From assembly GCA_021234155.1 (NCBI GenBank), contig JAJEKV010000039.1:1550001-1614000 (forward strand): a stretch of 64,000 nt of DNA, written 5' to 3'. The position numbers were made by a program, and so were the translations under genes. This document shows positions 1 through 41,802 of this stretch, in pieces (position 1 is the stretch's first letter; each line of letters starts with the position of its first letter). The notes beneath the pieces were generated by a model, which was given only the letters and a program-made list of their open reading frames with translations, did not search any database and was not told the origin of the DNA. The DNA comes from Isoetes taiwanensis (lineage: Eukaryota; Streptophyta; Lycopodiopsida; Isoetales; Isoetaceae).

Positions 1-1
1 A

Positions 2-1167
2 TCTTCAAGTGAGGAGAGCATCCCAGGTGACCAAGATACATCTGATCTGATTGATAATTTCAATCAGCAGGTGGATCAAGACGAAGCCGAATCACCAACT
101 TCCATGGACGAGGAAACCAGGGAAGTTTATGAGGAGATGGAGCGGGAGATTCAACAGCAGGAAAGGGAAGAGGAGGACCACTCTGATGCAGCAACAGAGA
201 TCCTCGAGGACGAGGAGGAGGGAGCACAATGGGAAAGGAGAACAAAGGAGCGGCAAGAGCACAACGGGCCAAGGCTCGACCCAAGCGAAGAAGAAGACCT
301 CGCAGCATGGATTGCGAAGCACGAGAAGAAACAACGGTGCCGAGAAAGCAAGAAGAGGAAGAGGGAAGAGGAGGCAAAAGCGGCCGAGGAGAAGAAGAAA
401 ACAAAAGGGAAATTCGTGATTGGCGAAAGGAAGCTCAAGCAAGGGAAGGGACCGAACCCCAAGATCGTCATCACGGAACGGCCCCCTGATCAGCCACCGA
501 ACTCCTTCGGCGAATCCTCTGACGAGGATTACATCCCCAACCCCGAGGCTGGAAGCTCTTCCAAGCCTCCAGTTGCTGAGCAGATCACCACCGAGCAGGT
601 AGCAGCCGAACAGCAGCAGCAGGACCAAGTGCAGAAGCCCCCTCCTTATCCGAAGTGGGACAGGAAGAAGCAACCACGGCCTGCCCGAGAGGCCTACGTC
701 ACGGGGCATATATGGAGCACGAGGCATATATGAAGATGTGGGAGGCGTACAACAAGTACTATGAAGAGAACAAGGTCACGTTCGTCGTGGGAGGACGCCC
801 AACGAAGCAGCAGACCTTAAGGCCGCCTCCACCAAAGCCCAAGGTCCCCAAGAAGCCAGCCAAAAAGAAGACAAGCAGGAAGGAGACCGAGAGAAGAGCA
901 CTGAGGGAGATCCGACACTTCCAGCGCAGCTACGACCTCCTAATTCCCCGTGCCCCCTTTGCTCGCTTGGTTAGAGAAGTCATGCAGGACTTCAACACTG
1001 GCATGAGGGTCACAGACGAGATGCTGCTGGCACTGCAGGAAGCGGCGGAGCAGAGAATAGTGCAACATTTTGAAGACTCGACAGCTTGCACTGTTCATGC
1101 GAAGAGAGTAACCCTCATGAGGAAGGATATGCAATTAGCTAATTTAATTAAGGGAGATCCCAAATGA
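2..1167 (+). CDS. Histone H3-fold fusion protein of a Ty3/gypsy element (5' partial, one frameshift)
   Basis: The reading frame is open from the window edge, so the N-terminus lies outside. The first ~240 codons (to 733) are very charged: acidic Glu/Asp runs, then Lys/Arg- and Glu-rich coiled-coil-like sequence, then Pro/Gln-rich sequence. Between about 655 and 733 the frame moves by -1, consistent with a one-base deletion or, less likely, programmed frameshifting. The second part runs through a Pro/Lys-rich linker into 89 residues (898-1164) that align without gaps to the histone fold of H3. The ORF ends 23 residues after the RVTLMRKD motif, as H3 does. There is no canonical H3 tail. It is followed by ~720 bp of spacer, a second unknown ORF and a chromovirus gag-pol on the same strand, so I infer it belongs to that retrotransposon. 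A host histone gene captured or inserted there is the alternative. Confidence 0.8.
898..1164 (+). other. Histone H3 / CENH3-like fold domain
   Basis: By hand, about 48 of 89 residues match canonical H3 as I remember it, without gaps. Recognisable blocks are ALREIRHFQ (alpha-N), PFARLVREV (alpha-1), QDF, ALQEAAE (alpha-2), FED, HAKRVTLMRKD (loop 2) and QLA with a final KG (alpha-3). EIRHFQ, LLIP, ALQEAAE and RVTLMRKD resemble plant CENH3 more than canonical H3 (which has RRYQ and RVTIMPKD). Loop 1, however, has canonical H3 length and lacks the extra residues typical of plant CENH3. It is therefore an H3-family domain of mixed character. Assignment to H3 is firm; subfamily is not. Confidence 0.93.
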
Positions 1168-1310
1168 ACATTTTGTACATAATTAAAATTTTTGAAATAT
1201 AAATCATTTTTTAGTACTTTGTGTGCCTAAACTTATTTAATTAGGACAAATTAGCAAGTAGTAGTTTTTGTTTTAGTAAAATAGGATATTTGCAGACCGA
1301 AAAGTGAGAT

Positions 1311-1377
1311 GTCTCACAGGTCGCGCCTGGTCAAGAAACTAAAGTTTAGTTTTTGGACGAGGCGCTAGCTATGAGAC
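1311..1377. repeat. Near-perfect palindrome, copy 1
   Basis: Begins GTCTCAC and ends GAGAC, with inner arms CGCGCCT/AGGCG and AAACTAAA/TTTAGTTT. Almost the whole 67 bp pairs with itself, so RNA or single-stranded DNA would form a long hairpin. Confidence 0.85.
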
Positions 1378-1510
1378 CTTACCCGAATTTGGCCAAAACA
1401 GCTCCAAATTGACCAAATAAGGGGTCAATTCTGCTTAATTTAATGAGTCTGTCATCCTTGCACCCTTAGTTTACCCAAATTGGACATGTTTTGATCAAAA
1501 TGGGACTGAT

Positions 1511-1577
1511 GTCTCACACGTCGCGCTTGGTAAAGAAACTAAAGTGTAGCTTTTGAACGAGGCACTACCTGTGAGAC
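1511..1577. repeat. Near-perfect palindrome, copy 2
   Basis: Same sequence as the copy at 1311 with a few substitutions. Ends are GTCTCAC/GTGAGAC. Starts exactly 200 bp after copy 1, but the DNA between the copies is not itself repeated. Confidence 0.85.
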
Positions 1578-1890
1578 CTCCTACCATTTCCTCACCATAA
1601 CTTGTCCAATTGATCTCCAACTTGCTATATTAGGATCTTTAGGTTATCCAGTCATGCTCAAACCCTTAAATTAGTCTCCCAATTTCCATTTAGAACTAAA
1701 TATAAGCTAGAATTGCCCAACTCCAGGAATTTTCCAAGTCACCAAAAAAATTAGGGTTTTCCCCCTTTTCTATTTAGGTCCCTCATTTCTTACGTAGCAC
1801 CTTACGAGTTTGCTCCTGCTCCCTTAGCCGATTTCTCAACTCCCTGAGGCGCTCTTGCATCCGTTTGCTAGTCTCTTCCTTGCTAGACTC

Positions 1891-3417
1891 ATGACAACCT
1901 CTGATTTCAGGCGATGGTACAACGCCAGCGCTCATGCTGCCGAGGCCGATGTCAATGAGATTTTCCAAGTCTTCCGGAAGGAGATAGATGTCCAGGCAAC
2001 CTTACACGCAACCCCAGCATATAGCAGAGTCCTGTCTGAATTTCAAGCTAGGGTAGAGCCATCATTAGTGCAGCTTCCACCTTGCATAGGCTACTTTGTT
2101 CCTAGGCAATCCCTTCAAGCAGCTTTAGGCGATGTTCCGAACATTGCCAAGTACCTCACCAACAAGGCCCAGCGCACGCCCGAGCCAATGGTCCTAACTG
2201 TCAACAGGACCAAGTACTTCTCTTTCAACACTGCCTTAGCCATTTTCCTTACCCACTGTGCCGAAAACTCCATGGGAGAAACCTCCATTCCCCCCATGGA
2301 CGTGGACCCATTAGCCACAGCAGCAGCAGAGCAGCTCCTTTTACAGTACGAACAGGAGCAAGAAGGAAGAGAAGAAGACAAAGAAAGCGAGGAAGAAGAT
2401 GAGGACTACGTCGAGCTCGACCCAGCGGAAGAGCAGCAGCTAGCAGAACAAGAGTTGCAGGAATTCGAAAGAAACCGGCAAACTCTGAGGATTGCGCCAC
2501 CCCTCGGGCTAGGCATCACAAGCCTAGCCCCCATCATCGTCGAGGGCGAAGAGTACTTGCTCTTAAGCGACATCTAGAATCTCCCGGAGTGTAGGGAAAG
2601 GGAGTATCGACCTGATGAGTTGCTGCACCAACTCCGGAGAACAGACCTAGACGACTTCATCGTCCGAGGAACTTCTGACTTCCCACTCCAAGTAAGGGAA
2701 GCCGACACTTATACGGGAGAGTTCACCTCCGACATTCAGGCCTATAGCAACATCAGGCAGATTATGGAGGCGCGGGAACTACCAACGGAGGAAGAGTTCC
2801 TTGCCCTACGGGAACAGATGGGGATCCGCCACGCGACCTCGAACATCTTAACGGCAAGTTCTTCGGCAACACCTCCCCGGGCGGGAAGAGGTGAATTCGA
2901 CCTAAGGAGAGCTTCAACAACAGTCAGAGACTACAGGGAGCTCACCACGGTGGAGGTCGATGACTATGCCGGCAGACACAGATCTGGAGGCCGAGGAGGC
3001 GAGGACCCATCACGCAACGACAGGTCGTTGCGGTATTACCTTCCCCTGCTGATGGATGGGAGAATAGCGGTAATTTACCGCAAATTCACCCCCAGGGGCG
3101 AAGAAGGAGTATCGATGCTAATTGCGCTCTCAGGCTTTGGCCGGCATGCTCGGCTTGCTCCCAACACCGAGTATGCCATCCTAGTGAAGAGAGCGGTAGC
3201 ACTCAATATTTTTGACTTCGCCATACCTTACAGACGGCAGGGAAGACTGGCAGTGACCGCAGCCTATACCTCCGAGCGTAGGATAGAAGATTTGGCGAGA
3301 GCTTTGCAGGGGGGATCTTCAATCAACGTCCTTAGGAACTTGGGTCATTCAGTGGGAACAGCCCAAGTGAAGAAATTCCTAGAGGATAACCCATCATACG
3401 GGCGATTCCAAGAATAG
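1891..3417 (+). CDS. Unknown retrotransposon accessory protein, one in-frame TAG
   Basis: I do not recognise this protein. The first ATG of the frame is at 1891. A single TAG at 2575-2577 separates a 228-codon half from a second half that continues in the same frame to 3417, so the ancestral product was about 508 residues. The first half has a mixed helical part, then a strongly acidic tract (roughly 2350-2470) rich in Glu/Asp/Gln. The second half has a Gly/Arg-rich linker near 2870-3030 and a globular-looking C-terminal part rich in Arg, Leu and Ala. No zinc finger, transmembrane segment or enzyme motif is visible. It lies between the H3-fold gene and gag, on the same strand. The acidic tract recalls histone chaperones, but that is only an analogy. 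Confidence 0.6.
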
Positions 3418-3630
3418 TTAGATTCTTGATCCCGGGGGTTTTTGTATTAGGATATGATATCATATAAATATAATTTCTTTTGCACTTTAAATGTTTTGTT
3501 GATGTATTTTGCTCCACAATTATACCAACAAACACGGGTAATGCAAGAGAATGAATAAAGCTAACCATAAGGCCATGACCTACTTGTAGCTAGAGGCCTA
3601 GGCTCAGGGGAACAACAACGCCGAGACCAT

Positions 3631-5265
3631 ATGGAAGAACAGAGTCCGCCCAGGCCACCCCCGGCAAGGAACCTGTTCGAGGATTTTGGACCCATCACCC
3701 CAGAAGAGGAAATATCACAGATGAGGACGAACCTTGAGCAGATAAAGGCTTTGCTGGCCGCGCAAGCAGGAGTAGGTTTGGAGGGCAACGCTCAGTTGCC
3801 ACAAGCATCAGCTCGAAAAATAGGAAGGGACAAGAAGAGAAGCAAGAGAAGGAGGTCTTCCAGCTCGGAGTCCTCCGACTCAAGCTCAGACTCGGACTCT
3901 AACTCCGAGGAAGAAGAAGAGCAGGCCCAGGACCGAACATAGGGAAGGCAGAGGAACACCACAGATGGAAGGCAGAGGGACACCGCAGATGGACGACAAA
4001 GGGACACAAGAGCCTCTGACTACCAGAAGAAGGTAGACTCTGCATTGGGGAATGTTAGGAAGGCCAGGAAGCTCGAGCAATTCTCAGGCGAGAACAGGTC
4101 AGGCATGGAGGCGGAGGCTTGGCTCGACGAGATGAGTGAATACGACAACGCCTATGGTATGAAGGATAAGGATAAAGGCAGGGTGGCAACAGCTAACCTG
4201 AAGGGTGCAGCACACATTTGGTGGAAGGGTTATGCCAAGGCCCATGGCTTAAGCAGGGATGCTTGCAGGTTCAGGAAGTTCGCTAAAGCCTTCAAGCGCC
4301 ACTATGTCCCGAGAGAGCACAAGTCCAGCATGATGCAGCAGTTCTACAGGTTGCAGCAAGGCAACAAATCAGTCCAAAAATATACAGAGGAATTCATGAG
4401 GCTAAGGCTTTATGTGCCAAAATTGGGTGAAAAGCATGCAGTGGAAAGCTACATTGAGGGGTTGAACGAAGAGATCCGCAAGCTTGTAAGGGCAATAAAC
4501 CCTAAGACAGTATCAGAAGCGGAGTCCAAGGCAATAAGCTTGCAAGGAACGGGGCCTCAGAATAGCGGGCAGAGGCAGCAGTATTTCCAAGATAAAGGAA
4601 AGGCAATAGGGAGCTATAGCCCTAGGGCAGCCAGTCCAGGTCCAGCTAGAACCCCATATGGTGGCAACCAGGGGAAGCAGCAAGAGAAGAAGCAGGTGTC
4701 CTTCAAGGACAAGCAGGAGGGGTCAAACTACTCCAAGGCAGTGCGATCCTTTTTACAGGCTATGCCCAAGGAAAAGAGACAGGAGTGCATAGAAAAGCAG
4801 CTTTGCTTCAGGTGCTTCCAGCCAGGCCATAGGACAGTGAACTGCCCCTACGTCATGAGCGCAGCACTAGCGGAGTTGGGAGATTGGGACACTCTATCCG
4901 ACGACGACGGCGAGGCAGCCCACGACTACATCCAGGGTGAGTGTCATATCTTTGCCGCAATAGACACAGAACAAGCAGAGAGCCAGTATAAGGTAATTTC
5001 TACAGTAGGGAAGGCCAAGGCCAAGTCTTTCATAGTCCTGATAGACTCAGGAAGTAGCCATAACTTTGCATCCCCCAGAATGGTTGAAATGTTGAAATTG
5101 AAACCATTAAAGTCGAAGCCGAGGCCTGTCGTTTTAGCAAGTGGGGCAGTAAGGCAGACAGCAGGCAAGAGGATCAACTTCGACATCGGCTTGCCAGGGA
5201 TTAATATCCAGATGGGGGCAGAAGTAATGGGCATTGGCAAGTATGACTTGATCATAGGAATGTAG
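3631..5265 (+). pseudogene. gag: Ty3/gypsy gag and protease (chromovirus)
   Basis: ATG at 3631. The N-terminus is followed by a Lys/Arg then Ser/Asp/Glu run and a TAG at 3940-3942. The same frame continues through an 8-residue tandem repeat around (A/T)DGRQRDT into a capsid-like Retrotrans_gag domain (about 4080-4540; IWWKGYAK, YTEEFMRLRLYVP). A CCHC zinc knuckle is at about 4804-4845 (CFRCFQPGHRTVNC). The aspartic protease follows, with catalytic VLIDSGSSHNFAS near 5035-5075. The frame ends at a TAG (5263-5265) in the position where related elements read LIIGMDWL. Gag and protease are therefore recognisable and almost open, but the stop codons mark a decayed copy unless they are suppressed. 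Confidence 0.9.
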
Positions 5266-5290
5266 TACCTTGGACTAGCAAGGGCCATCA

Positions 5291-6112
5291 TTGATTGTGG
5301 AAAGCGGAAGGTGCCCAACGCCCGACGGCAAGATCACTGAGATTACAGGTAAAGAAGTTGTTCCCATCATGCAGTGTATGTCTTCTAAACGACTGTTCAA
5401 GTGCATCAAGAGCGAACAGGTAGCATACATCTTCAAGATTGAGATTGAAGAGCCGGAGTCAGAAGAAAGCAAAGAAGACAAGGTGCTCAGCAAGTTGCCG
5501 AAGCAAATAGCTCAGTTGATCACGGAATTCCACGATCTCTTTCTTGATGAGATCAAGCACCTCCCTCCTTACAGGGGAGTCGAGTGTGAGATAGGACTCG
5601 AACCGGGAACGAAGCCGACAAGTAAGGCTCCATACAGAATGACGACGCAGGAGTTGACAGAGCTAAAGAAGCAATTACAGGAGTTGCTCGACCTGGGCTT
5701 CATTAGGCCTAACGTCTCGCCATTTGGAGCGCCCATTCTTTTTGTCAAGAAGAAGGATGGCAGTTTGAGGATGTGCATAGACTATAGGCAGTTGAACAAG
5801 CACACCATCAAAAACAAGTACGCGCTTCCCAGATCGGATGACTTGATGGATCAGCTTCTAGGAGCAAAGGTCTTCTCCAAAATCGACTTAAGGTCGGGCT
5901 ATCACCAAATCCGGATTAAGGAAGAAGATATCCATAAAACCGTCTTCAGAACGCAGTATGGGCATTATGAGTTTACGGTAATGCCTTTCGGCTTATCGAA
6001 CGCCCCCGCGACGTTCATGAGGCTCATGAACGACATCTTCAGGGAGTTCTTAGACACCTTTGTGATTGTGTTCTTTGATGACATTTTGGTGTATAGCAGA
6101 TCCCTTGAATAG
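5291..6112 (+). pseudogene. pol: Reverse transcriptase, N-terminal two thirds
   Basis: This segment is frameshifted relative to gag-protease. It contains the linker and RT fingers/palm: [71 protein letters not shown] and the catalytic FFDDILVYS box near 6070-6100. It ends at a TAG (6110-6112) where relatives have a sense codon followed by HxxHL. FFDD rather than YxDD is common in plant chromoviruses. The next piece of RT (YLGHVIS, about 6215-6235) is in another frame, with a TAA at 6160 and a TGA at 6283 on the way. Confidence 0.92.
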
Positions 6113-6162
6113 CACGTACAACACTTAAGGAGAGTGCTAGAGAAGTTGAAGAGGCACAGTAA

Positions 6163-7569
6163 CAGTTGTACGCCAAGTTGTCGAAGTGCCACTTCGCAAC
6201 GGAGAAGGTGGAATACCTCGGTCATGTGATCTCAGCAGAAGGAATTTCGACGGACCCCGCCAAGATTGAAGCAGTGATTCAGTGACCGGCACCGAAGAAT
6301 GTGCATGAGGTCAGAAGTTTTCTCGGCCTAGCAGGGTACTACAGAAAGTTCGTGAAGAACTTTGCTAAGATAGCAGCCCCACTAACAGACTTGACGAGGG
6401 CGGAGAAGGTGAAAGATTGGGCAGAGCATTGGCACAAGAAAGCCCAAGCGGGGTTTGAATTGTTGAAAGAAGCTCTGACGACCGCCCCTGTCTTGACCCT
6501 GCCAGACCCAGAGAAAGATAAGCTTGTAGCCACAGATGCGAGTAAGATAGCTACAGGTGCGGTGCTTATGCAAGAAGAGCGTGTGGTAGCGTATGACTCC
6601 AGGAAGATGAACGACACCGAAACGCGCTACCCCACGCATGATCAGGAGTTGCTTGCGGTTGTCAGAGCATTAAGAATTTGGAGGCATTACCTTTTGGGAA
6701 GGAAGTTCCAATTGGATACAGATCATCAGAGCCTCCAGTATGTATTCACGCAACCACACCTCAACCTGAGGCAGAGAAGGTGGATGGAGTTCCTTGAAGA
6801 ATATGACTTTGATATAATCTACAAGCCAGGGAAGCTCAATGTGGTAGCGGATGCGCTTTCAAGGCATCCCCTGACAACTAGAGTGCATTGCAATGCAATT
6901 TCGACGCTCTCCAGCAACTTCGGGAAGAAGATTGAAGAATCCTTGCCAACAGATGTCGACTTCAAGGAAGTATGGGCAAGCTTATGCAGGGACGCAAGAA
7001 CAGATAAGGAGTGGGAAGCCTTCAAGAATTATAAGAAGGAAGGCAACCTGTTATACCATAAGAACAAGTTGTGCGTGCCCGAATCATCAGGTGTAAGGAA
7101 ATTGATCCTCCATGACACGCACAACAGTCCAATAGCTGGCCATGCGGGATTTATGAAAACATATTTCAAAGTGCGCAGCAGCTATTATTGGCCAGGAATG
7201 AAGAAGCAGGTAGCTCGCTACATCAAAGAATGTCAGCTATGCCAGCAGACGAAGGCAGAGCAACTTCGAATTCCAGGGGCATTAGAGCCATTAGCGGTGC
7301 CAAACGCTAAGTGGGAAGTGATCAGCATGGATTTTATAACAGGGCTTCCAAGGACAGTAAGAGGGAAGGATGCCTTGATGGTAGTGGTCGACAAGTTGTC
7401 GAAGATGGCACATTTTGTGCCTTGCAGGACCACAGATACCGCTATGGATACAACGAAGCTCTTCACCAAAGAGATCTTCAGGCTTCATGGCATGCCAAGG
7501 GAGATTATCTCCGACAGGGACCCCAAGTTCATGAGCGCCTTTTGGCAAGACCTCTTTACGACGATTTAG
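6163..7569 (+). pseudogene. pol: RT thumb, RNase H and N-terminal integrase
   Basis: After the end of RT (HFATEKVEYLGHVISAEG; FLGLAGYYRKF) comes RNase H with LVATDASKIATGAVL, HDQELLAVV and LDTDHQSLQY. The HHCC zinc-binding domain of integrase follows (HDTHNSPIAGHAG... CQLCQQTK, ~7110-7250). Then the integrase core with its first Asp in MDFITGLP (~7330) and second Asp in SDRDPKF (~7510). A TGA at 6283 and a TAG at 7567-7569 interrupt the frame. The TAG falls inside the integrase core between the second Asp and the catalytic Glu. Confidence 0.92.
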
Positions 7570-7581
7570 ACCAAGCTATCC

Positions 7582-8424
7582 ATGAGCACAGCCTATCATC
7601 CTCAGACAGATGGCCAAACGGAGCGGACCAACAGGATTTTGGAGGACATGCTACGAAACTATGTCTGGAATAAGCAAGGTATGTGGGAAGAATTTATTCA
7701 CTTGGTGGAGTTTGCATACAATAGCACCAAGCAGGAATCATCCCAAATGTCGCCGTTTATGATCAATTACGGCTATCAATGCCTAACTCCAGACACTTGG
7801 CACAACCCCGTGTCAAAGGTAGAAGTTTCGCAGCAAATGTTGGCCGAGATGCAGCAGCTCGTGGAGGAAGTTCGAGGGTATCTCCTTGCAGCAAGGAGCC
7901 GACAGAAGAGCATCGCCGACAAGCATCGAACAGTCAGAGAGTTCCAAGTTGGGGATGATGTATGGCTCAAGATCAAGGTGAAGCAGGCGAAGCTCAGGAT
8001 CGGGAATTGTAAGAAGCTTGCTCCAAGGTGGGCTGGACCTTTCAGAATAGTCCAGAGAATAGGTAATCAATCCTACAGATTGGATCTACCAGCACACCTA
8101 AAGATTCACAAGGTCTTCCACGTGAGTCTGTTGAAGAAGCATACTCCAAATCCAAACGAAGTCTTGGACACTCCAACGTTGTTGGAAATGATGGAGGAGC
8201 AGCTGGAAATAGTTCCAGAATTGATTCTTGATAAAGCCTTCAAGAAAACGAGGAGATCAGAGTTCCTCCAATATTTGGTCAAGTGGAAACACTTGCCAGT
8301 GGAAGACGCGACATGGGTACTTAAGACAGATCTAGTAAAGCAATACCCACAGTTCATGGAGCAATGGGACGGCAAGGTCATCTCCGAAGAAATCGGCTCA
8401 GGCATGTCGATTTGTGTAGATTAA
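7582..8424 (+). pseudogene. pol: C-terminal integrase with chromodomain
   Basis: Continues in the same frame after the TAG at 7567. It starts with the integrase catalytic Glu motif (YHPQTDGQTERTNR) and GPFRIVQRIGNQSYRLDLP of the C-terminal DNA-binding domain. It ends in a chromodomain at about 8215-8360 (LQYLVKWKHLPVEDATW), which places the element among the chromoviruses. In that group the chromodomain is known to bind methylated histone H3 tails and direct integration. The TAA stop at 8422-8424 lies inside a hairpin (8417-8450). No coding-sized ORF follows before the LTR. Confidence 0.93.
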
Positions 8425-9287
8425 TTCTATGTGTAGTTGAGATTAATCTACGCATGCAACCTATGTTAGGTATGGGTCGCATGCGTTGTTACCGATGATG
8501 GGACCACTACGGTGATCTCTAGGGCGTGGTGTAATGTCAATGTAGGCATGACCGCGTTTCCGCTTGGATGAGTGGAGGGTAGATTAGAAAGTCTACTTCT
8601 GTCCCACGGAAGTAGACGACCTCGAGAGAAAGGAGGTCATTGAGGAATGCATTGATAGGAAAGGCACCTTTAGCCCCATATATGCTTTGATAGGAGGAAT
8701 CTATCCTTCACGCCCCATATACGGGAAGGATATCCTCCATGCTGGGCAACTAGAGGTGTAGGCATGAGCGGCATATAGGCATATAGGCGTTGTCTCCATG
8801 GACACGATGGAAGATTCACCCTCTTCCTACGCCGGGAGATTAGCCATGCATCCATGTAGGTAGGTGGGGTGGTCACCATATAACCAAAATTTTCATTAAT
8901 AATTAAATGGTACTAACGTAGTGTCGACCTGCAGGCCAATAGAGCGCTCCGGAGGGCAAGGAGGTCGAGTTACGAAGACTTACAACACAAATTTTGTTGG
9001 AATGTGTTGCAAGGAATGAAGAGCACCTCGAACAATAATTATATATATGAAATGTTAGAATTTTGATAAACTTAATTGTCGTGTTAAGTAAACTATTGAG
9101 TAACTTGTTTAATGATGTGCGAATCGATAAGTTATTTCATAAGTTAATAATATTTAAAAATATTACCTTAAGGTAATCTTGATAAATGTGTAGGTATTGT
9201 AGTAGTAAATTGTATGCATCAAGTTGGTTGCAGGTTAGGACGTTTCCAAGGTAGGGAGACCCACGATGCTGCGGACAGCATCATTTC
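8425..9287 (+). other. 3' untranslated part of the chromovirus with stacked hairpins
   Basis: Non-coding. Three short inverted repeats are clear: 8417-8450 (TAGATTAAT/ATTAATCTA, around the pol stop), 8451-8485 (CGCATGC/GCATGCG) and 8592-8618 (GTCTACTTC/GAAGTAGAC). The stretch 8670-8730 also repeats the phrase CCCCATATA. The last 300 bp are AT-rich. Confidence 0.65.
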
Positions 9288-9300
9288 AAGGTGGGGAGAA
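9288..9300 (+). other. Polypurine tract of the chromovirus
   Basis: The purine run AGGTGGGGAGAA directly abuts the TG of the 3' LTR, the expected position of the plus-strand primer. Confidence 0.8.
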
Positions 9301-10878
9301 TGTGACGTTCCAGCACAGTATACGGTCCCAGGACGTATACTATACTGCCCCGTCGCGCGTACACGCCACCCCGACTGACGTGTACGCCGACGTGTAGCCA
9401 GGTAGGTAGCCCCTAGGGGGCAACTTGCTAGGTATGTGCAATTATTATTAATGTGCACATTTACCAATGTGCACATTAATGTGGGCACACCTTTCCATGT
9501 GGGCACATTTTGCCACCTAGCCATTAAAGGCAAGTGGGCCCATTTCCAATTATCCCACATGCCTAAAAGGATAATTGGAAACCCTAGCCCTAAACCCTTG
9601 TCTATTTAGGTTAGGAAAACCCTAACTTGCTATTTTCGTCCATAGGGTTTTAGAGCTCTGTTTTGGCTGCTCTAGGAGCCAAAACCACCTCCCAGACTCT
9701 GCCCAAGCGAATTGCACCATTAGTTTTCCTTGATTCGAGCAGTTCAGCAGGATGGTCGAACTCAGGTCAGGAGGAGCCACCCAAGGATCAGGTATTTAGT
9801 CAATTGAGTAGCTTAAACCGTCTTCCAGTCATAGAATCAATAGGTTTAGCCTATTAGACTGCCCATAGCAGCTACCTAGATCTCTAGATCCCAGACACTA
9901 ACTAAAGAACCTAACTCTACGATATAGATTAGATCTAGTTCTTTAGTTCTTCTGTGATGTATATAGATGATGTATCTCTGTGAACTCCTTGTATTGGGAA
10001 GGGGGGTAGAGGCCCTAAAGCTTGGTAGTTGATGCTCCTAGAAGTAGCCTCTCTAGCACACTGTAGATTCGGCCTGTGCACAAGAACCACACCTGGTTGT
10101 GGGTGAAGGGGCCAGACTGGCTTAGAAGGAGGTTCGTGTTCTGACTCTTGAACGATCCCTATGGTGTGTTAGTACTACCGGGGATCATTGTGACTAGGTC
10201 TAATGGCTTACCACTGAGTGTGGGTAAGGCATAGGCTCGACACCCGTGAAGTGGGGTATACTTTCCATTGGGTTCAAGTCGAATATGGGCAGTGGCCCTC
10301 TAGTCACCTTGGGTCAGCATGTAGATCTCTGGAGGGAGTGATCCCTACCTGCCCCAGCGGGACTGGGGAGATGCAACCCAGGAATAGCCCCTTTGGCTAT
10401 GCACCCGGTGGGCTACAGTCAGGTCCCAACACTTTTCAGCCTACTCTGCAAAGTGTGCATAGGAGGGGCGGATGAAGTGGACAACCCTAAGCCATGTTCT
10501 TATGCCAGCCAAATCCATTGCCATGAATTCCGTCTGCAATGAACTCTGGAGACCCAAGCCGCCAGTCATCCCTTGGAGTCTGAGCCTTGGGTAGGATTTC
10601 CCACATGTATTGTGCTTACCCTTGTCTATGCAGATGTGATGAACCACCCTTCGAGGTGGGTATGTGATTATGTTGTATACTGACATGTATGTTTACGCTT
10701 CCGCAGCTAGGTAGGCCCTGAGGGAGACGGGGTAAAATGACCCCTTCACTCTTCCCACTGGAACCCGTCACGGTTGCAGTGTCATGTGGAGGGCCCTGTA
10801 TCGGCATGGAGCTGGTATGGGGGATGAACTCCTGTTTGTATACGGTGAGTGCATCGTATGCGATTAGGGGACGTCACA
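9301..10878 (+). mobile_element. 3' LTR of the Ty3/gypsy chromovirus
   Basis: Starts TGTGACGT and ends ACGTCACA, an 8-bp terminal inverted repeat with the canonical TG...CA ends. Length is 1578 bp. A polypurine tract precedes it. No second copy occurs in the window, so the 5' LTR must be upstream of position 1 or lost. The putative target duplication would start with GGCAA (10879-10883), which cannot be checked here. Confidence 0.88.
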
Positions 10879-12180
10879 GGCAATGATTTGTAGTCCGTGG
10901 TTCAGCTCGAACGAGCATTTACCACGACTCTTCAATACGCTTTGGCACAATGATCGAGGATCTGCCTTCATTGTAGCCAATGCCCCTCCTAATGGATAGC
11001 CAAGTAATTTGTCAAACAATGTTCCCACCAATGTCACATTTAGGGTCTTGCATCCAATGTCAATATCATCTAACATTGTTACTTCTTCCGTCATGTCGTC
11101 AAAAACAAATTGATTAGCAACCTTCAAAATAGGAAATATCATGACTTCAAAAATGATTAAAAATCTTCAGAATAGGAAATATCTGTTACTGGAGTGAAGA
11201 GTATTTACAGAAATAATTTCCCATAAACTCCAGTGGAGATGGCTTGCAAGGACATAACCCTGCACATCTCTTTCCAAAAGCTCGACATCCTTTCCTAAAA
11301 GCAGCATTCTCTGTTAATGCTAGCTACCTTACAATTGTCAAGTAAAGCATACACAATAACTGATAACTAGTCTTATAAACTTCCACAATTTGAGTTTGGT
11401 ATTTTAAGAAGTGGTTTTATCAATGGTTTGGGGTAAGATTTAAGTGATGTATAGTATTGGAAAGCATATTTTTTGAGGCATTTGAGGAGCTTAATGGCGT
11501 TTAGATGTCGCTTGAGGAAACAGGGTGAATTTCTTTGGGCGCTTGCAATGTCTGGAAATGGAATGACGGGGAGGTGACGTGACGGTGCTGCCTTGACAGA
11601 CAGCGAGTTCTTGCATGCCGTTGAAGGCGGAAATGGACAGTGGTTTGGATGCCCCAAGGATGTCTGTCAGACTGGCAATGGGAGGTAGGAATCCGGATTT
11701 GCAATCTTTGTGTTTTATGAGGTCGAGTCTTCTGCTGGGGTCCTTAATGAATTTGATTTAGTTTTGCTTGAAACTTGCTCCAAACGCAATGATTCCTGCT
11801 GCAACATATTTTTGTTGGCAGACCTGTTTACACTATTCCAGATATTGTTGAGTTCGTTGTCCGTTCATGCATGTATCTGCCTAGCAATCTGCGACTAAAT
11901 CTGATAGTTAAAATTTCCTTTGTGATTTAAACTTATCTAAATTCAGCCTTAGATATAAGGCGAGTTTACTTGTTACCATAAGCTGACTATAGCTCAAAAA
12001 CAAGTCTTCTTTCTTCTACCGTGAATTTTCTTCGTTTCATGTCGAGTGTAAGGTGATTGAGCAGCTTTTGCCAGAGCGATCTAGTCCTGAAGCAAAGGGA
12101 CAACCACATGTTTTTAAAGGTTCACTTTCTTGCAAGCGCCTGAACAGCTGTTCATGGGGTCCCCGGGTGGTCTGGCATGA
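10879..12180. other. Intergenic stretch, nothing identified
   Basis: AT-rich flank of the chromovirus. A minus-strand frame at 10879-11142 is open but resembles nothing I know. Two copies of AATAGGAAATATC lie near 11125 and 11173. No RNA gene or TE motif is evident. Confidence 0.5.
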
Positions 12181-13463
12181 GTGTTGCTAAGTGCTTTGAA
12201 AGGACTGTATGTTGTTGGAGGTATGGATATGCGTAGAGCAGCGAGATTGGGACTGAAAGTGCACAAGATGGCTCTTCCCAAGGTCATTGTGCAGGAATCC
12301 ATTTGTTTACAATGTAGAGGCTTTGATGGGAGGCCATTACAGCATTGTCTTGATGCAGAGGGCAGATTGCCTATGAGTAGTGGAACTGATGAGCTGAGGA
12401 ATAGCAGAGATAGGTCTAAAGTTGGGGAGGTCAGCTGGGGTGCTGTAGAGCCTGGATCTTTCACTGTTCTAATTGGTGGACAGGGTAGATATGACAGTGG
12501 TAACAGCTTTGGTTTAGTTCCAGAATCATGTGATGGAGGTAGATTGCCTGTCAATGACCTAAAGGGCAGCTTTGTAAGTAGAGAATTGCCAGCGATCTAT
12601 GAGGATCGTGGCCCATTTCTGTTTCCACAGCCTGCAGTAGAAAAGTACCGTATGGAAGGTGGTAGAGGTGGAAGGGGAAAATCTGCTATTAGAGGTGGTG
12701 CACATGGGCAAGAAAGGGGTGCACGTGGAAGAGGGAGACATGTGAGAATTTGTGAGCCTATTAATGACAGTTTACATGAGGATCATGTAGAAGAAGCTGA
12801 GCGGGAGGGAATCACGTATGTGACAAGGGGTCGGAGTGCAAAACGAGGGCGATGGAGAGGAAAGAAAACTGCAGGTATGCTTGAAGAGCATCTCGGTGCG
12901 AACATTGCAGGGGGAGCCAGCGAAGAGGTTGTGGATATGCCCTCGGTTCTAGATATGTCAGTAACAATTGTATTTGGAAGTGTAGATGTGCTTGTTTCAT
13001 TGTATGAGCGCATTGTGGATTTCATGAAGCAAAACTGCAAAGCTGGTGTTGTAGAACTCGAGAGAGGATCTTTTTTAGATCATTTGCATGTGCAAGCAGT
13101 ATTCCGGTTGCATGCAAACAAAAACACCTGCAAGTGTAAATATTAGGATCAAGAATTTCCTTAGCTGGAACCATAGCAGGCTTACGGGAGTTATCATTTT
13201 GTGCAAAACTCTGACATGAAGTCGGCTCCATTGTTTTTGAAGGGTTGGTCGGTTATTGCTTAAAAGATCTGGACAAATTGCATTTTAAGGTGCATTTGCG
13301 CAACATATGTGCTGAGCAGGTTAAGGCCGGGAAGGAATTATATGCGCTATATGGCACTGGAGATGTAAAGAATTTGGCGATCCTTGATAATAGAAACATC
13401 ATTGTTAGAAAATATAGGGTTCATCACATATTTAAGTTGAAGACAGGTTGCAGAACAATATGA
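12181..13463 (+). pseudogene. HUH-endonuclease Rep gene (Replitron-type transposon), broken
   Basis: An open frame runs 12181-13146 (the ATG is uncertain). Its first two thirds are low in recognisable features and include a Gly/Arg-rich segment (about 12650-12850). The rest carries the Rep signatures in order: motif 1-like SVTIVFG (~12958), the HUH motif as HLHVQ (~13083) and, after a TAG at 13144 and two frame changes, the tyrosine motif GYCLKD (~13250) followed by FKVHLRNICAEQ. The HUHUQ plus YxxKD pair is diagnostic for rolling-circle Rep endonucleases. The downstream block resembles what I recall of Replitron proteins rather than Helitrons or CRESS viruses, and there is no helicase domain here. 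The breaks mean this copy is not functional. Confidence 0.72.
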
Positions 13464-13510
13464 TCTTCATGATCATCAGAGTTAAAATGAAGAACAAAGT
13501 TGCAGAACAA

Positions 13511-14036
13511 TGTTATTAGGGTTGCATCTAAGTTCAAAGGTTGCAAGATTTTATAAGGTGAGATAACATTTAAATTATATGGTTAAATTGGTTTTCAATT
13601 GTTCGTGGTCGCGAGATTAAAAGGATGCATGTGGGATATTGTTTGAAGAAAACCAGAAGGTCGTGAGATTGAAACAATGCATGTGGGATATTGTTTAAGA
13701 AAAGCAGAAAATAGAAAGGCCAAAAACTCGGCTTGCCGAGCTAATTGAATTGAGCCTACACCGACAGATCATTGGATAAATAGCCCAGCAGACGGAATGG
13801 AAATGAGCTGAAGTGATCCCGGATTGAATCGGGCAGATATGAAGACCTCCATGTAGTTGCGTTGATTGGAAATGAAAATGAAATATTGAAGTTCATTTAC
13901 AATGGTTTAACTATACCATTGTTTTCTTTCATTTGATAACCATTGGTTATTGTTGTTTATCTTTGCTTGGGTTATTCTAGCCTATTGAATTATTTGATAT
14001 TGAACTGTGCTTGCTAAAGGTCTGAGTATTTTAACA
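13511..14036 (+). mobile_element. 5' LTR of a Ty1/copia element
   Basis: 526 bp beginning TGTTA and ending TAACA. The primer site follows within 3 bp. No 3' partner is present in the window, so the element is truncated. The 14-bp phrase GTTGCAGAACAATG directly at the 5' edge is preceded by a near copy about 55 bp upstream. Confidence 0.75.
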
Positions 14037-14038
14037 TT

Positions 14039-20588: not shown

Positions 20589-23500
20589 TTACAGATTGTA
20601 AAATATATCCTCTAGTGCATCTTCTGAAAGAAATGCACTAGACCCCTCTAACTCATCCTCTTGTATCTCTTGGATGTTAAGTTTCTTCAACATTATTTCC
20701 CTATGATCCAAAATTTTAACAATATAGTCACCGATCGTGCTACCTGGCATATCAAAGAAATCTATCAAGTTACCACAAACAATATTATATGTATCTCTGA
20801 AACTTTTGTATTGCGGGCACTGTAGAAGCACATGCGTTTCATCCTCAACCACTCCCATCTTGCATAGCTTACAGAGTCTCAGCTCATGGGGAATATTGCT
20901 CCAACGCCCAACTTCAACGCCAAGATGATGTGAGCTAAGTCTCATTCTGCCAATTGTATGCCTTAGCTTTAATGACACACCTTCTCTCAAATATCTTGGG
21001 ACCTGAAGCTGTGGGCTGATATTCTGCCTGTAATATTCCTTCTTGACTTCTGGCACTCTCCATGATTTCTCCATAACATGTTCCATTACCCACTCCCTAA
21101 TATCCGCATGATGTTCGGCCAATCCAGATACGTCTAAATCCCACTTTCTCATCCAATTTTGTATATCGGCATACCACCCTTTGCATTTCGTTGTCTCTAA
21201 GGCCAATCGTGGTAAACTTGATACTGGCATTTCCTGTACATACTTAAGTGTTCGGCACAAGGCTTCTGATTGCAATGATGTCATCCCACACTCGGCGAGT
21301 AGCATGTCATATGGTGTCTGTGACTTAACACCGAGCTCTGTTCTGAGAAACTTCTTCTGTACCTTTTCTATTTTCCTCCAAGTCTCCTCAGCCAAACCTG
21401 GAGCCCATACCTCACAGCCATACACCAATACTGTTTGCACTAGAACCCCATATAACTGTTTTTTCAATTGGAAGTTCCATATCTCATTTTTTCTACTGTT
21501 GCGCTGCATACTATATAATGCTTTCAGCCCACCATTTATCCTCTGCTCTGCAGCATAGTTCCAACTCGGACTCTTATCAACCTATATCCCTAGGTATTTA
21601 TATGAATCCACCAGTTCTACCGGTTCCCCTTTGTACACAAGGTGTATGTGATCCACTTTGTTTGCCCCAAACACGATTATTTTAGTCTTTCCCATATTAA
21701 CTTTCATACTCTTATGGTCACAAAATTCAGCCAATCCATCTAAATGTTTCTGTATTCCAGCAATTGACCTTGACAAAAGCACTACATCATCCGCATATAA
21801 AAGTAAGAACACCACAAACCTCTCTAGAGCCATACCGCCCCTCCCCTCGGATTCGCATCATCGGTCTTCTAGTTGGTCTATGAACAACCCAAAAAGAGTG
21901 GGAGACATGGGACACCCTTGCTTTACACCTATGTTGCTTACTACTGGTTCCTGGCCTTCTCTAAAATAAGGAAAAGATAGCTGCACAAGTACCTTCTCGT
22001 ATAGTATTTTGACTGCTTGCTTTAGTTCGTTTGGCACCCCCAGTTTTTCCATACGTTCCCATAAATTGTCTCTGTCCACCATGTCGAAAGCTTTTGTAAA
22101 ATCTACAAATAACATATAAAGTGGTTTCCTTGTTCCTCGTGAATCAGATCCATCATTGCTCTCAAAGTAACCAAGTGATCTGTAGTGGACCGTTTGGGTC
22201 TAAAACCCGCTTGCCCTATAGCCCGTACACCCATTTCTTCTGCCCATCCGCTTAGTTTACTATTAACCATAGTAGCAAAAAGCTTAGCATATAGGCTACT
22301 GATCATAATCATCCTATAGTTGCTGGGATCTGACTTATCACCCGCTTTATGCAAGGGAACAACCCTATTTATTTGCCATTCCCGTGGGAAGCCCTCTCTC
22401 AATACCATATTCATTAATTTCAGCAATGTTTTGTGTATCTCCTCTCCTGCCCACTTAAACATCTCCGCAACCAGCCCCAAGTTATCTGCAGCTTTCCCAT
22501 TTGCCAGTGTTTCTAACCCCCTCTGTATATCGTCCATTGTGAATTCCCATTCTACATTGAAATCTGCCAGACCAGTGTCTTTTATGCCTGGTACATTGTA
22601 TATTTTTTTAACTTGGCTGATTAATGGTTCTACCTCAAGCAGCTCACCTTGTTCAATTCTTGGCTTAAGCCTTGCCCAAAATTTCTTAGGCTCTACCAGC
22701 AAGTCTCCAATCATTCGCATGTGTTTTTGGTATAGAAACTTTTTCTTTTTCGCTTTCACTAATAGCATATATTCCCTCTTAGCCATGAATTTCTCCTCCC
22801 CCCTTGCATGTTTAAATTTTTGTCGTTTTGCTTTGCATTCCTCGTCAAACCAGCTGTTACATGGGAGCCCTTTTAACCTACGCTGGGAGACAAAACATTT
22901 CCTTGCTGCCTCTATTACCAATTCACTAATGCTCACAGTAAGATCTTCCACCTTTTCAGGCCAATCCTTGCACATGGCACAGGATTCACATAAGGAGTTG
23001 TATTCCTCCGCTTTGTTATACTGCATGTATATCTTTTTATTAGGGCTGTCTACTACTTTTCTTGCAATCTCATGGCGTTTAATATGCATGGTAACAAAGA
23101 TAGGCACATGGTCTGATTCCGTCCTTTCTTCACCAACATCTACATCGGAAATAGTTCTCATTAATCTCGGGCTAGCTATCACTAAGTCCACCACACTGGC
23201 ACCTCTACAGGTGGGCTTACCAGAGTTCCTGTATTTTTGGAGACCATTATAGATGACCATATCGAGTCCTGTACACATATTTAGCACATGATTTCCTTGT
23301 GGTGTGGGCCACCCGATTCTATCTGCTGACTCTCTATGCCACCCTAGTTCCTTCATCTCATTTCCGTCATTCATTTCCATCCATAAAGGATCTCCTTCGA
23401 TACTAGTCATTGCGGCTTGCTTCTGTGCTATCCTGCCATTGAAGTCACCCATTAGGATCACTTCTCCCTGTTGCATCAACTTTAGGACATCTTATTCTAG

Positions 23501-23896
23501 GTCAAAAAAGGGATCATCCCTATCTATTTGCCCCCAGTTATAAACTAGTGATTCACGCTAAACCCTAAACCCTAAACCCTAAACCCCTGCTATGTATATT
23601 TTATTCAAAGGTCCCAATATCTCAATCCATATATATTGCAAAGATTTTATGCCATGTACTAGCTGTATCATCCCTTGCAGCTCACGTTTTATGTAACAAG
23701 CAATCCCACCGAATCCTTTAAGCCTCCAGTGCTTATGATGCCATACTGAGTGAAGACATATAAAACCTGGAATGTCTAATATCCCTTTTTCCTCATTTTC
23801 ACAAGTTTCTAACAGAAAGAAAACATCTACTTGTTCAATAATATCACTCATAGTTGCTACTTTAGTTGAATTCAGGCTGTTTATGTTCCAACACAT
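20589..23896 (-). pseudogene. LINE ORF2: endonuclease and reverse transcriptase
   Basis: Begins MCWNINSLNSTKV, the first motif of an APE endonuclease, about 20 bp after the ORF1 stop. The endonuclease continues after a telomeric insertion (23558-23587) with ILMGDFNGRI and SDHVPI (~23100). RT motifs follow: GKAADNLGLVAEMFKW, RVVPLHKAGDKSDPSNYRMI, GQAGFRPKRSTTDHL, then after a frameshift near 22110 FVDFTKAFDMVDR, KQGCPMSPTLF and the catalytic YADD (~21790). The C-terminal part has a Cys/His cluster, CKLCKMGVVEDETHVLLQC (~20850). Stops lie near 23481, 21858, 21582 and 21510. The copy cannot make an intact protein. Confidence 0.92.
23558..23587. repeat. Interstitial telomeric repeat (CCCTAAA)4
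   Basis: About four perfect plant-type telomere units (TTTAGGG on the minus strand) inside the endonuclease domain of the LINE ORF2. They replace the codons after KIYIAGV. Confidence 0.97.
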
Positions 23897-23917
23897 AACC
23901 CTGATGGTCCCTAATTC

Positions 23918-24955
23918 CTATGCATCTTCTTCTATTATGACTCTTCCTCTGTGCCAATATGCTTTTTTGCCACTCTGTCTTGCCTCCTTGAAGATCTGAA
24001 GTTGTGCTTTGTACTCTAGCAGCTGGCTTTTGGTGAGATCATCATTTATCCATATATTTCTTTTCCCTTTCAACAGCATTTTCTTTTTCAAAACATTGAT
24101 CTTATCCTCCCTGGACCTGAAACGGGCTATAATGTGCCGGTTGCCACTGTTTGGCTTGCCTATGCGAAATGCTTCAATCACCCCTGCATCCATAATCTGA
24201 AGGTCCTGTTCACATAAAGCCACCACTATCTCTTTGGTCTGTTCCCCAGTTTCTTCGGGCATGCCCACAATTCTCACATTCAATGCCTTTTCTTTCCTTT
24301 CTTGCTCTTCCATGTATGCAGAAAGCTGAGTTCTGACTTCCAGGATATCTTCATTAGTTTCCATCATGCCTGTGGATCCACTGGGATCATTGTTCTGCCT
24401 TGAAACTGACTGTTTGAATGCTTCCATTTCAGTTTTCATGCGTTCCTGGAAGCTTTCCAGTTCAACTTTCATGGCCTCTTTGCATCTATCTATTTCATTC
24501 TGCACATGGGATAACAGAAAAGATTTGAGCTCATTAACCATACCTTGCACTGAGATCTCCATGGATATTTTCATGGATACTAAAGAGTGATCCATTGCCT
24601 GTCGCATCTGACTGATGGCTTGCAGCAGGTCTTGCTTGGTCAGTGTATCTGGTGTTGCAACATGAAGGCCCGAATCCTCTGTTTTCCCAGAAATCAAATC
24701 CCCTGTTTTCTTTGTTCCAGCACCACCAATTGCTTCTGATTCTGTTATAAAGCTCGGGCTCCCTGTTTCGCTATCTCCTGTAGCACTGCCAGCTCCACCT
24801 GATCCGATCCCTATACCTGTTCCGGCCCCTGTTCCAGCGCTGTCAGGGTTTCCGATACCTGTTCCGACACTTGAGTCCGACGAATCCTCCTCTTCTATTC
24901 GATTTTCTTTTTTCTTGTTTCCGACACCTGTTGCAGTCCTCTTCTTTTGTGCCAT
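23918..24955 (-). CDS. LINE ORF1 protein (RNA-binding, L1 type)
   Basis: ATG at 24955 (MAQKKRTATG). About 345 residues without a stop. The N-terminus is basic, then a Gly/Thr/Ser-rich low-complexity part. A coiled coil spans about residues 130-230 (QMRQAMDHSLVSMKISME; RCKEAMKVELESFQERMK). It is followed by an RRM-like core (ALNVRIVGMPEE) and a C-terminal domain (RHIIARFRSREDKINVLKKK; GKRNIWINDDLTKSQLLEYK). This order is that of L1-type ORF1p, a trimeric RNA chaperone that coats the LINE RNA. It is the only LINE frame here still intact. The stop is separated from ORF2 by ~20 bp, compatible with reinitiation. Confidence 0.85.
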   Translation of the reverse strand: MAQKKRTATGVGNKKKENRIEEEDSSDSSVGTGIGNPDSAGTGAGTGIGIGSGGAGSATGDSETGSPSFITESEAIGGAGTKKTGDLISGKTEDSGLHVATPDTLTKQDLLQAISQMRQAMDHSLVSMKISMEISVQGMVNELKSFLLSHVQNEIDRCKEAMKVELESFQERMKTEMEAFKQSVSRQNNDPSGSTGMMETNEDILEVRTQLSAYMEEQERKEKALNVRIVGMPEETGEQTKEIVVALCEQDLQIMDAGVIEAFRIGKPNSGNRHIIARFRSREDKINVLKKKMLLKGKRNIWINDDLTKSQLLEYKAQLQIFKEARQSGKKAYWHRGRVIIEEDA

Positions 24956-25061
24956 GCTGCCCGGTACCCAAAGCACTGTAGCAGTCCTAAAACACCAGAA
25001 GTACCAGGACAAACCCCAACTAATCAGAAAGGCAGATCGATCTACAAGCAATCAGAGTTTC

Positions 25062-26218: not shown

Positions 26219-27407
26219 ATGACGAAGGCAACCAGATCCTCTATGCCGAATGCTAAGAAGCCGTTTGTTTCCCCCAGGACCGAGAAATTGGCTCTTAGAA
26301 GAACTAAGAGGATGATTGGATCAGTTTCCCAATCTGTGGCCATTGAGATAAATTCTGAACCTGCATGGGCTTCCACTTGTAGTGTAAGGGGAAGGAAAAG
26401 GGATCAACCAGAAGATGGATTGCCTGAGGTTCAATCTGAACCCCTCCCCAATGAATTAGCCTTAGTTGTGCACGAAAACAATTGCTCTTAACCCGGCCAA
26501 GAAAAGGAAAACTCCTGTAGATTGGTCGGACAATGCAATCTCCACCATGCTTGCTTTGATGAAGGAGTACAAGGTTCATAATAATAGAAGTATCAATCTT
26601 TCTTCAAGCCAATGGAGAGAGATTATGGTGAGATTACAACCCACAGTTCATGGACTTGAAGATTTGAGACAGTTAAGAAACAAGTGGGATAAATTGCAAA
26701 TAAAATTCAGGGATGAGAAAGAAGCATCCGAAAGAACTGGCTCTGAGCCATCTAGCTGGCCATGGTTTGAAGCTATGGAAGATCTGAAACATGGAGTTAC
26801 AAATGAAAGGGACATTCCAAGTGCAGGGGATGATGGGGAATTTGGGGCCGAGGCATTTGAGGATGCTGGTATGTTTCCAAACACCTTCATGTCTGATGCA
26901 TTCTATGAGACAATTGGAACAAATGCTTCTTTTGTGGAAGAAGAGTTTATAAACATTGCAGATGATAATCCTGTCAGCCCTGTTGCAAATGAAGGAAATG
27001 GAAGCAAAGACAATTCAAGTGCTCGGGAAAAAAATTCCAGCAAAGATACTCCGAGTGCTTTCAATCCTTCTGACACAAGTCCTCGGTCTGCTGCATGCAA
27101 TCAGCCAGGGGTTAGTGGTAAGCCAACAACAAAAAAGAGATCTCGAGTTCATATTGATGAAGAAATTGCAACTGGGATATCAAACATGGCTAATAGCTTT
27201 GGAGAAAATGAAAAAAGGAAACTAGATTTCATGAAAGAAGAATCTGTTAAAAAACATGAATTGATCAGGGAGTTGGAGTCCATGAGGTCAGCCAATACTT
27301 TGAAAATTGCCCAATCAATGGCTACAATGACAAAAAGCATATGTCAAATGACAAAAGATACTCTACTAGAGATTGCTAAGTTGGCTGCATCGAAGCAGAC
27401 AAATTAG
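26219..27407 (+). pseudogene. Myb/SANT-like protein of PIF/Harbinger accessory type
   Basis: A first frame starts at ATG 26219 (~90 codons, Lys/Arg-rich). It is joined after a one-base shift near 26480 to a second frame that ends at 27407. The second holds a trihelix-like DNA-binding domain at about 26515-26770: VDWSDNAISTMLALMKEYKVHN, WREIMVRL, LRQLRNKWDKLQIKFRDEK and SSWPWFEAMEDL, with the spaced Trp residues of the family. A Ser/Asn-rich linker, a KKRSR basic stretch and a C-terminal helical part (NSFGENEKRKLDFMKEE...) follow. PIF/Harbinger transposons encode such proteins beside their transposase to bring it into the nucleus and onto DNA. No transposase is adjacent here. A host trihelix-like gene is an alternative, and the apparent shift could be an unrecognised intron. 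Confidence 0.7.
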
Positions 27408-28489
27408 TATGAAATTCAAAGGTTTGTCCTGCACTGTCATTTTCAATTTGTTTATTTTTTTGTTCCTATTATTTTTTTGAGCTTCTGTAAGTTAGTTAAA
27501 ACAGTATGTTCTGTTCAAGTTCAATTTATGCTTTGTGAATGATTGGAACTTAACTTTCAATATGGTATGGGGATCTCATATCGAATTTAAATGAGTATGA
27601 AATAATATTCCTGATCCTGACTACTTAAATAGTTTAATTCCATAATTTCGTACGTCGTCTCTTTAAATTCCATTATGCATGTCTCGATTCTAGCGCTCGA
27701 TTCTTTATTGTAAGCCACTCGAAGATGGCAAGGCGAGGTCTTGGTCCGACGCCATTTCCCTGTGTATCCATCTTCTAGTGAAGATTCTGATATGGCGGTC
27801 GCTGCTAGTTCGGCTTCAAGCAGCATGACCATGGAATCGAATGAGATTTGTGGAGCTCTAGCACAAGAGCTTCCATGCATTTGTTAGCCAAAGAGTTATT
27901 CTTGGCTACATGTCCATGGAAGAAGTTTTCGTGGAAGCCGAGTTAATTGCATGGGCTGAGCAAGCCCCCTTCCGCTAGAGAGCATATGTTGAGATGATTC
28001 ATGTCAAGCATCATGGAAGATAGTGTCTTTGGGAGGTCCGAATCCCATCAGTGACATGTGAAAACTACCCTGAATAGCCTGCTCATATGAAGACTCGTTT
28101 TTTTTTTGTGCTGCTAAAAAACTCAGCCCCCTTTTTTTTTTCTTTCTTGTCTACTTTTAATTTCTGGAGCAATGTATGATATTGAACCGGCCACATGCCT
28201 TTTTTTGTACTCAGACTATGAAGAAATCATTTTTTTTGTACATCCATGACATATTAATACAAGTTGTTTGGTCTTAACTGGATATTCCTCACTTGAGTTG
28301 CCTTTCATGTTCACTAAGACGTTGTTCAGGTCCTCATGGTTTCTTAGCATTTCAGGGACCACAAACATTTCTGTGACAGCTCTAATTGTGTTTTAAATGT
28401 GTTCATGTAACAGCCTTGAGATTAATGAAATAAAAACAGTTTATTATCTTCTGTACTTCTCATCTGCTGTGGTTATTCATTGTTTATTT
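27408..28489. other. AT-rich intergenic stretch
   Basis: Poly(T) runs near 28100-28150. A minus-strand frame at 27587-27880 is open but has no recognisable motif. Nothing else seen. Confidence 0.4.
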
Positions 28490-28579
28490 ATTGCTGTAGT
28501 TGTTCATTTACAGAATGCAAATATTGTTTAGATAGAGCTGTAGTTGTTCATTTGCAGAATGCAAACATTGTTTAGATAC
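28490..28579. repeat. Minisatellite, left half (interrupted by the LTR element)
   Basis: Two ~45-bp units GCTGTAGTTGTTCATTT-CAGAATGCAAA-ATTGTTTAGATA. Two further units lie at 41803-41885, just after the 13.2-kb insertion, so the original array had about four units. Confidence 0.85.
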
Positions 28580-29139
28580 TGTTAGTCCTGTGCCTCCTGG
28601 TACAGGACTATTCATGCATACGACGGACCAGGTCAAGAACAAGGATCCATAGTCCGCCACGGGTCAGCCGTCAAAGGCCCAGCAGAAGACCAAGCAGCAG
28701 CCCAAGAGGCGCCGCTCAGACAAGTGACGGGCCATCACCGCCCGCGTCAGCGTGATCTTAGGCACCTCAAGAGGCACCGCCAGCATTCCTGCAAATCAGG
28801 CCTCCTTCAAGGAGTCGGCACCGAGATCAGTCAGAGTGTCTATATTGGGCCAAAGGCCATTGTACTATATATATGAGTAGAGCTAGCACATTAAGGCTAG
28901 ATGAGTTTTGAGTCTTGTCTCGTTTCAGTCTTCTCTCGATTGCGAGAGCTCATGTATGTTCATCATTGATATCAAGGAAGCTTTTCATTTTCCTCTCATT
29001 GTTCTCTTTGTTCTGTTTTCTTCTTCTTGTTCTCTTCTTGCAAATTCCGCGTGACATAGACCCCCGGATTCTCCTGTTAGATCCATTGGTCCTCACAGAG
29101 GGCTGTCTTCCAGGAGTTCCCGAACCCAGACCCCAAACA
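28580..29139 (+). mobile_element. 5' LTR (560 bp)
   Basis: Starts TGTTAGTCC, ends CCCCAAACA. A TATA-like run TATATATAT at 28866-28874 is a plausible promoter. Six differences from the 3' LTR by eye, five of them transitions. Confidence 0.97.
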
Positions 29140-29158
29140 CTGTCGCCGCTGCCGGGTC
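29140..29158 (+). other. Probable primer binding site
   Basis: TGTCGCCGCTGCCGGGTC directly follows the 5' LTR. It resembles the TGGCGCCGTTGCCGGGG primer site used by several Athila/Tat elements, but with mismatches. Confidence 0.55.
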
Positions 29159-29186
29159 TGATTCCATCCTACTTTCTTCTGTCGAC

Positions 29187-31028: not shown

Positions 31029-31074
31029 TAATGGTACCCAGCCTTGCTGGGCATAAATTAGGAACCTTTAATTT

Positions 31075-33122: not shown

Positions 33123-33321
33123 ATTGAAGCCATAGTCAAGATGAAATTTTAGTTGAAGACACGCACACATCATCTCCACCATTGGTCAATCAAATCCTCG
33201 ACCGTCCGATTTAGGGTGCGGTCCATTACACAACATTATAATATAAGATGGCACGCAACCTGCCTTTGCAGTTGACACCATTCCTCATGAGGAGGAAAAA
33301 AAGGTACATTTTGCCCCTGAC

Positions 33322-34227: not shown

Positions 34228-34296
34228 TCCTTGGGGAGAAATGACTCTTGATCAGGACCAGGCTGTGGCGGCTTTGCTTGACCCCTACCTGGCTCC

Positions 34297-41797: not shown

Positions 41798-41802
41798 GAT
41801 AC

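Follow-up and report, generated by a model that had tools for sequence, protein, structure and literature searches.

Does a Ty3/gypsy retrotransposon in the genome of Isoetes taiwanensis carry a histone H3 gene of its own? The question arises at the left edge of the window analyzed here (64,000 nucleotides of contig JAJEKV010000039.1, positions 1,550,001 to 1,614,000 of the forward strand; coordinates below are those of the window), where an H3-fold protein had been predicted beside the genes of such an element. On the plus strand, frame 1 stays open from position 655 until a stop codon at 1165-1167 (655..1167) and encodes 170 residues, a basic linker followed by a histone core of 89 residues (898..1164). 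This frame matched the Pfam Histone profile above its cut-off (E = 1.3e-29), and the sequences of solved H3 chains in the PDB matched it from E = 9.1e-28. The first 87 of the 89 core residues aligned without a gap to chain 7ux9_E (listed as histone H3.3, and presumably that of Arabidopsis), with 50/87 identical where the original prediction had counted about 48 by hand; when the window residues were shuffled 10,000 times, identities to H3.3 averaged 6.3 and never exceeded 17. Among the database rows compared, the highest identity count to the core was 55, reached by P0012, P0017, and P0085. An AlphaFold2 model of the frame (53 sequences; pTM 0.46) had a pLDDT of 90 to 93 at residues 101-160 and of 82 at residues 81-100, and a Foldseek search with this model retrieved nucleosomal H3, with 427 matches at E ≤ 0.001 and an rmsd of ≤2.2 Å for 41 of the best 50. 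Profile, solved chains, and modelled fold all agree with the gap-free H3 fold proposed for 898-1164: this is a real H3-family gene encoding a strongly diverged H3. Of the positions that form the H3-H3 bundle and those that contact DNA, 10/11 and 9/14, respectively, are kept.

What precedes the core is less simple than had been supposed. A charged, low-complexity extension (2..733, plus strand, frame 2) is open at the window edge, ends in a TGA at 731-733, and encodes 243 residues (17% glutamate, net charge -20) that remained below every Pfam cut-off. The charged extension to which the H3 part was said to be fused, at least 290 residues long, thus exists, but 2-1167 consists of two frames, the charged part in frame 2 and the H3 part in frame 1, rather than of one. 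Joining the extension to the basic linker requires a frame change near 700-712. This is most simply explained by a decay mutation; programmed slippage or an intron could also form the bridge. A bridging intron was set aside as a test because the 78 GT-AG pairs that fit make it uninformative. A motif search found no ARK[ST], RTKQT, KSAP, or RPGT in either the extension piece or the H3 frame, so the canonical K4, K9, and K27 contexts, and with them the canonical H3 N-terminal tail, are missing from this protein; in the HMMER alignment, the linker followed the H3 tail only loosely, starting at GG. None of the best 120 of 653 H3 matches (718 candidates) shared the same extension, and neither did any of the matches listed from a second search (15 matches of 112 candidates). 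The nearest architecture among the matches listed was that of P0124 (324 amino acids), in which a diverged H3 core is likewise preceded by a long, charged N-terminal stretch: its core was 56% identical to that of the window over 88 columns, and the two extensions gave a low-complexity match only (best E = 3.8).

Downstream on the same strand lie the remains of an element whose Pfam matches follow in the order gag, protease-like, reverse transcriptase, RNase H, integrase, and chromodomain, which identifies it as a chromovirus (Ty3/gypsy) and bears out the prediction that the H3 gene precedes, in the same orientation, a gag-pol whose last domain is a chromodomain. The gag frame (3631..5265; Retrotrans_gag, E = 2.2e-18) includes a zinc knuckle and a protease-like end whose matches fell under the Pfam cut-offs. 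The pol pieces (5291..8424), spread over several frames, encode reverse transcriptase, RNase H, and integrase (RVT_1, E = 4.7e-28; RT_RNaseH; Integrase_H2C2; rve), and the type II chromodomain occupies 8212..8370 (Pfam Chromo, E = 2.5e-10, and an alignment to Chd1). A likely 3' LTR of 1,578 bases (9301..10878, plus strand) was recognized by eye from its 8-base inverted ends, TGTGACGT...ACGTCACA, with a purine-rich tract before it. Between the H3 gene and gag stands a further open frame, ORF X (1891..3417, plus strand). Both of its pieces fell below every Pfam cut-off, and its structure model was unusable (mean pLDDT 35.4), yet one of 7,997 candidates scored, P0122, encoded on a 2,007-base contig, matched it at E = 1.7e-138, with 46% identity over 97% and the same start methionine. 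Judged by this match, ORF X is a real, conserved gene; P0122 was the one relative found for a protein family that is otherwise unknown. Decay shows in the copy analyzed, with a TAG in X at 2575, a TAG in gag at 3940, and a pol split over stops and frames; because these three frames are broken, it is not autonomous as it stands, and it probably does not make the whole H3 protein.

Whether the H3 gene belongs to this element depends in part on where the element ends. A sensitive comparison of the 9301-10878 LTR with 1-9300 returned 8 pieces (best E = 0.86) and nothing LTR-like between H3 and gag. The claim that no LTR intervenes therefore held, and a nested LTR separating H3 from gag-pol, the arrangement that would have spoken against a joint element, was looked for in the sequence and not found. 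The spacer between H3 and X (1168..1890, plus strand) measures 723 bases, under half the size of the LTR. Since the 64,000-nucleotide window also holds no second copy of 9301-10878, a 5' LTR, if present, lies to the left of the window. A search of 1-14,038 that allowed up to 2 mismatches found no primer site of the initiator tRNA-Met type, the only type looked for. The spacer contains a 72-base direct repeat (1308-1379 and 1508-1579, 88% identical).

Gene order and strand, the lack of a detectable LTR in between, and a similar third-position GC make it probable, in our judgment, that H3 belongs integrally to this decayed chromovirus, along with the conserved X; the element is seen here in one copy with its left end beyond the window. 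The extension, H3, X, and the gag-pol pieces had a third-position GC of 0.57 to 0.65; 17 other open frames in the window ranged from 0.26 to 0.54. Counting against this reading are the broken gene frames, the single copy, the 5' LTR outside the window, the lack of a shared extension among the H3 matches listed, and the composition of the spacer, which, with a GC of 0.39 and no excess of A (AT skew -0.08), is unlike the coding parts (AT skews 0.48, 0.31, 0.18, and 0.19). Codon usage was rejected as strong proof of membership: the correlation of 0.79 between H3 and gag-pol was matched by 0.78 when the frame was shifted by one base (0.50 when shifted by two), and the histone core alone gave 0.66 with gag-pol and 0.62 with X, where one LINE frame reached 0.62 and 0.66. 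The codon-usage match shows shared composition, not membership. Scans of viral contigs (IMG/VR) for relatives returned 110, 10, 57, and 6 pattern matches, of which tblastn confirmed none, and Rfam had no match in the window.

The H3 gene could instead belong to another element, or be a host H3 or CENH3 copy, beside which a chromovirus lost its 5' part. The missing 5' LTR, the deviating composition of 1168-1890, the decay of the chromovirus copy, and a codon-usage match that is not frame specific would all suit such an arrangement. Opposed to it are the shared strand and order of H3 and element, a spacer without LTR remnant, and the third-position GC by which H3 resembles the element and none of the 17 other frames; on balance we regard it as unlikely.

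The element has neighbors of its own in the window. A second LTR element (28489-41886) has repeats at 28580-29139 and 41238-41797 that are 98.9% identical, with pol at 35064-37340, three open frames 3' of pol (37694-41385) that fell below every Pfam cut-off, and, by self-comparison, about 2 kb of pyrimidine-rich simple repeats (31121-33127). Elsewhere, at 20589-25051 (minus), 45654-49851 (plus), 50616-51596 (minus), and 26466-27407 (plus), there are LINE-like frames on both strands (identified by eye), a DDE_Tnp_4 transposase frame, and a Myb/SANT-like frame.

From which kind of H3 might the gene descend? The window H3 has the motifs EIRHFQ, LLIP, and RVTLMRKD, all like those of CENH3, together with a loop 1 of canonical length: the longer loop 1 of plant CENH3 is absent, and the core is gap-free against H3.3. 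The mixture of features described in the original prediction (EIRHFQ and RVTLMRKD with a canonical loop 1) is thus confirmed by the alignment, which adds LLIP. Plant CENH3 proteins (e.g., P0012, P0013, and P0015) share EIRHFQ, LLIP, and RVTLM-KD and have up to 55 identities to the core; they differ in that the rows shown align to it with 3 gap positions, and in an N-terminal part that is different from, and much shorter than, that of the window H3. The proposed H3/CENH3 tree gave a divided answer. In a tree of 136 rows, from which P0030 and P0135 had been removed (no motif found), the window H3 was unplaced, on a long branch. In a tree of 47 rows, which left out P0061 for lack of a motif and omitted P0086 from the plant CENH3 set (as did the next tree), joining plant CENH3 cost 0.31 log units (p = 0.371), whereas placement with canonical H3 had p = 0.013, but with row P0123 nested in the canonical pair. 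In a tree of 45 rows, chosen after the 47-row result (without P0011, P0044, P0061, and P0123, and with a further canonical row; overall three fewer long or nested rows), the window H3 was sister to plant CENH3 at 88/88 and canonical placement had p = 0.272. We therefore do not claim a rejection of a canonical-H3 origin from the p of 0.013. Having only about 90 columns, the trees do not settle the ancestry, which on present alignments leans toward plant CENH3, with 88/88 in one of three trees.

An integral gene may still be an idle one. Neutral change was simulated from the present core down to 56% identity (1,500 runs, two transition rates): the frame stayed free of stops in 12.7% and 15.5% of runs, and the probability of escaping a frameshift was about 0.001 to 0.0015 if 0.1 indels per substitution are assumed. 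Constraint on the H3 fold over its whole history is likely. With half of the change placed within the element, 32 to 35% of runs were stop-free and the chance of no frameshift rose to about 0.04, so selection on H3 inside the element is only suggested. The gene might thus be a functionless passenger, captured by chance and amplified, a reading that overlaps with an integral H3 in structure and differs from it on function. Capture followed by decay has a precedent in fungal hAT transposons, as described in PMC6710886, and the gene is frameshifted in the window copy. The gap-free, open core at 57% identity, its kept structural positions, and the neutral simulation all stand against a passenger, although each would also fit selection that acted before capture; we find the passenger reading possible but doubtful. 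That an assembly join error placed the H3 gene beside the element is very improbable: the feature sits at the window edge and is seen in one assembly, but the window contains no N and no break was seen in it, though none was specifically looked for.

For the chromodomain, the original prediction noted that such domains read methylated H3. At the cage positions, as placed from HP1, the segment retains the tryptophan (YLVKWKHL) and lacks an aromatic residue at positions one and three of the cage, so that 1/3 cage aromatics remain. Loss of the first and last cage aromatics defines the type II chromodomain, whose elements are described as, as a rule, not centromere-bound (PMC3059260). Because the domain is of type II with one of three aromatics, there is little basis for taking it to read methylated H3. 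In gag-pol order and cage aromatics the element resembles plant chromoviruses with type II chromodomains (the Tekay, Reina, and Galadriel clades as treated in PMC3059260); it is set apart from these clades, as far as that account describes them, by the H3 gene and ORF X that precede gag.

H3 genes have been reported on other mobile elements. Captured H3 genes are described for hAT DNA transposons of Pyrenophora tritici-repentis (PMC3538342), which also have an extra ORF of unknown function, and for hAT transposons of Pseudocercospora fijiensis and relatives (PMC6710886). As presented there, those elements share with ours an H3-family gene on a mobile element; they are fungal DNA transposons, whereas the window element is a chromovirus LTR retrotransposon whose H3 has diverged much further and comes with a long charged extension. 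Among LTR elements, Ty3/gypsy elements of Phalaenopsis with a captured AlkB-type demethylase ORF (PMC9289625) and of bdelloid rotifers with captured ORF3s (PMC5408684) likewise encode, in an additional ORF, an acquired domain of cellular origin; according to these accounts, both rest on many copies or families, and the capture proposed here on one copy. The main-text section of PMC9289625 on extra LTR-element domains in 121 angiosperm genomes names no histone, and the word "histone" is absent from the main texts of PMC6338049 and PMC5408684, which treat extra domains of retrotransposons. No LTR retrotransposon with an H3 gene was found in the literature searched, a lightly tested absence from print.

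In the scenario we propose, a chromovirus (Ty3/gypsy) family would have acquired an H3-family gene and would carry it in front of ORF X and gag. Because the core has no intron, the gene may have come from a host H3 or CENH3 mRNA captured during reverse transcription, after which its sequence would have diverged while the fold was kept. The protein could then pair with host H4 and enter nucleosomes or (H3-H4)2-like particles on the element cDNA or at the insertion site. With the canonical contexts of K4, K9, and K27 missing from its N-terminal part, particles containing it would be unable to take those marks. Joining host H4 in particles without the usual H3 tail marks is the mechanism that we judge most likely, and we advance it tentatively. 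A more specific version, in which a CENH3-like histone turned chromovirus nucleosome subunit wraps cDNA or insertion site and, having no H3K9 or H3K27 sites, lets new copies escape H3-based silencing, is a long shot; were it true, the element would be an LTR retrotransposon building chromatin of its own. If the H3 gene is both integral and selected, transposons can encode the substrate of host silencing and not its readers alone, the H3 captures known from hAT elements of fungi would be joined by one in an LTR retrotransposon, and histone mimicry by transposons would become testable.
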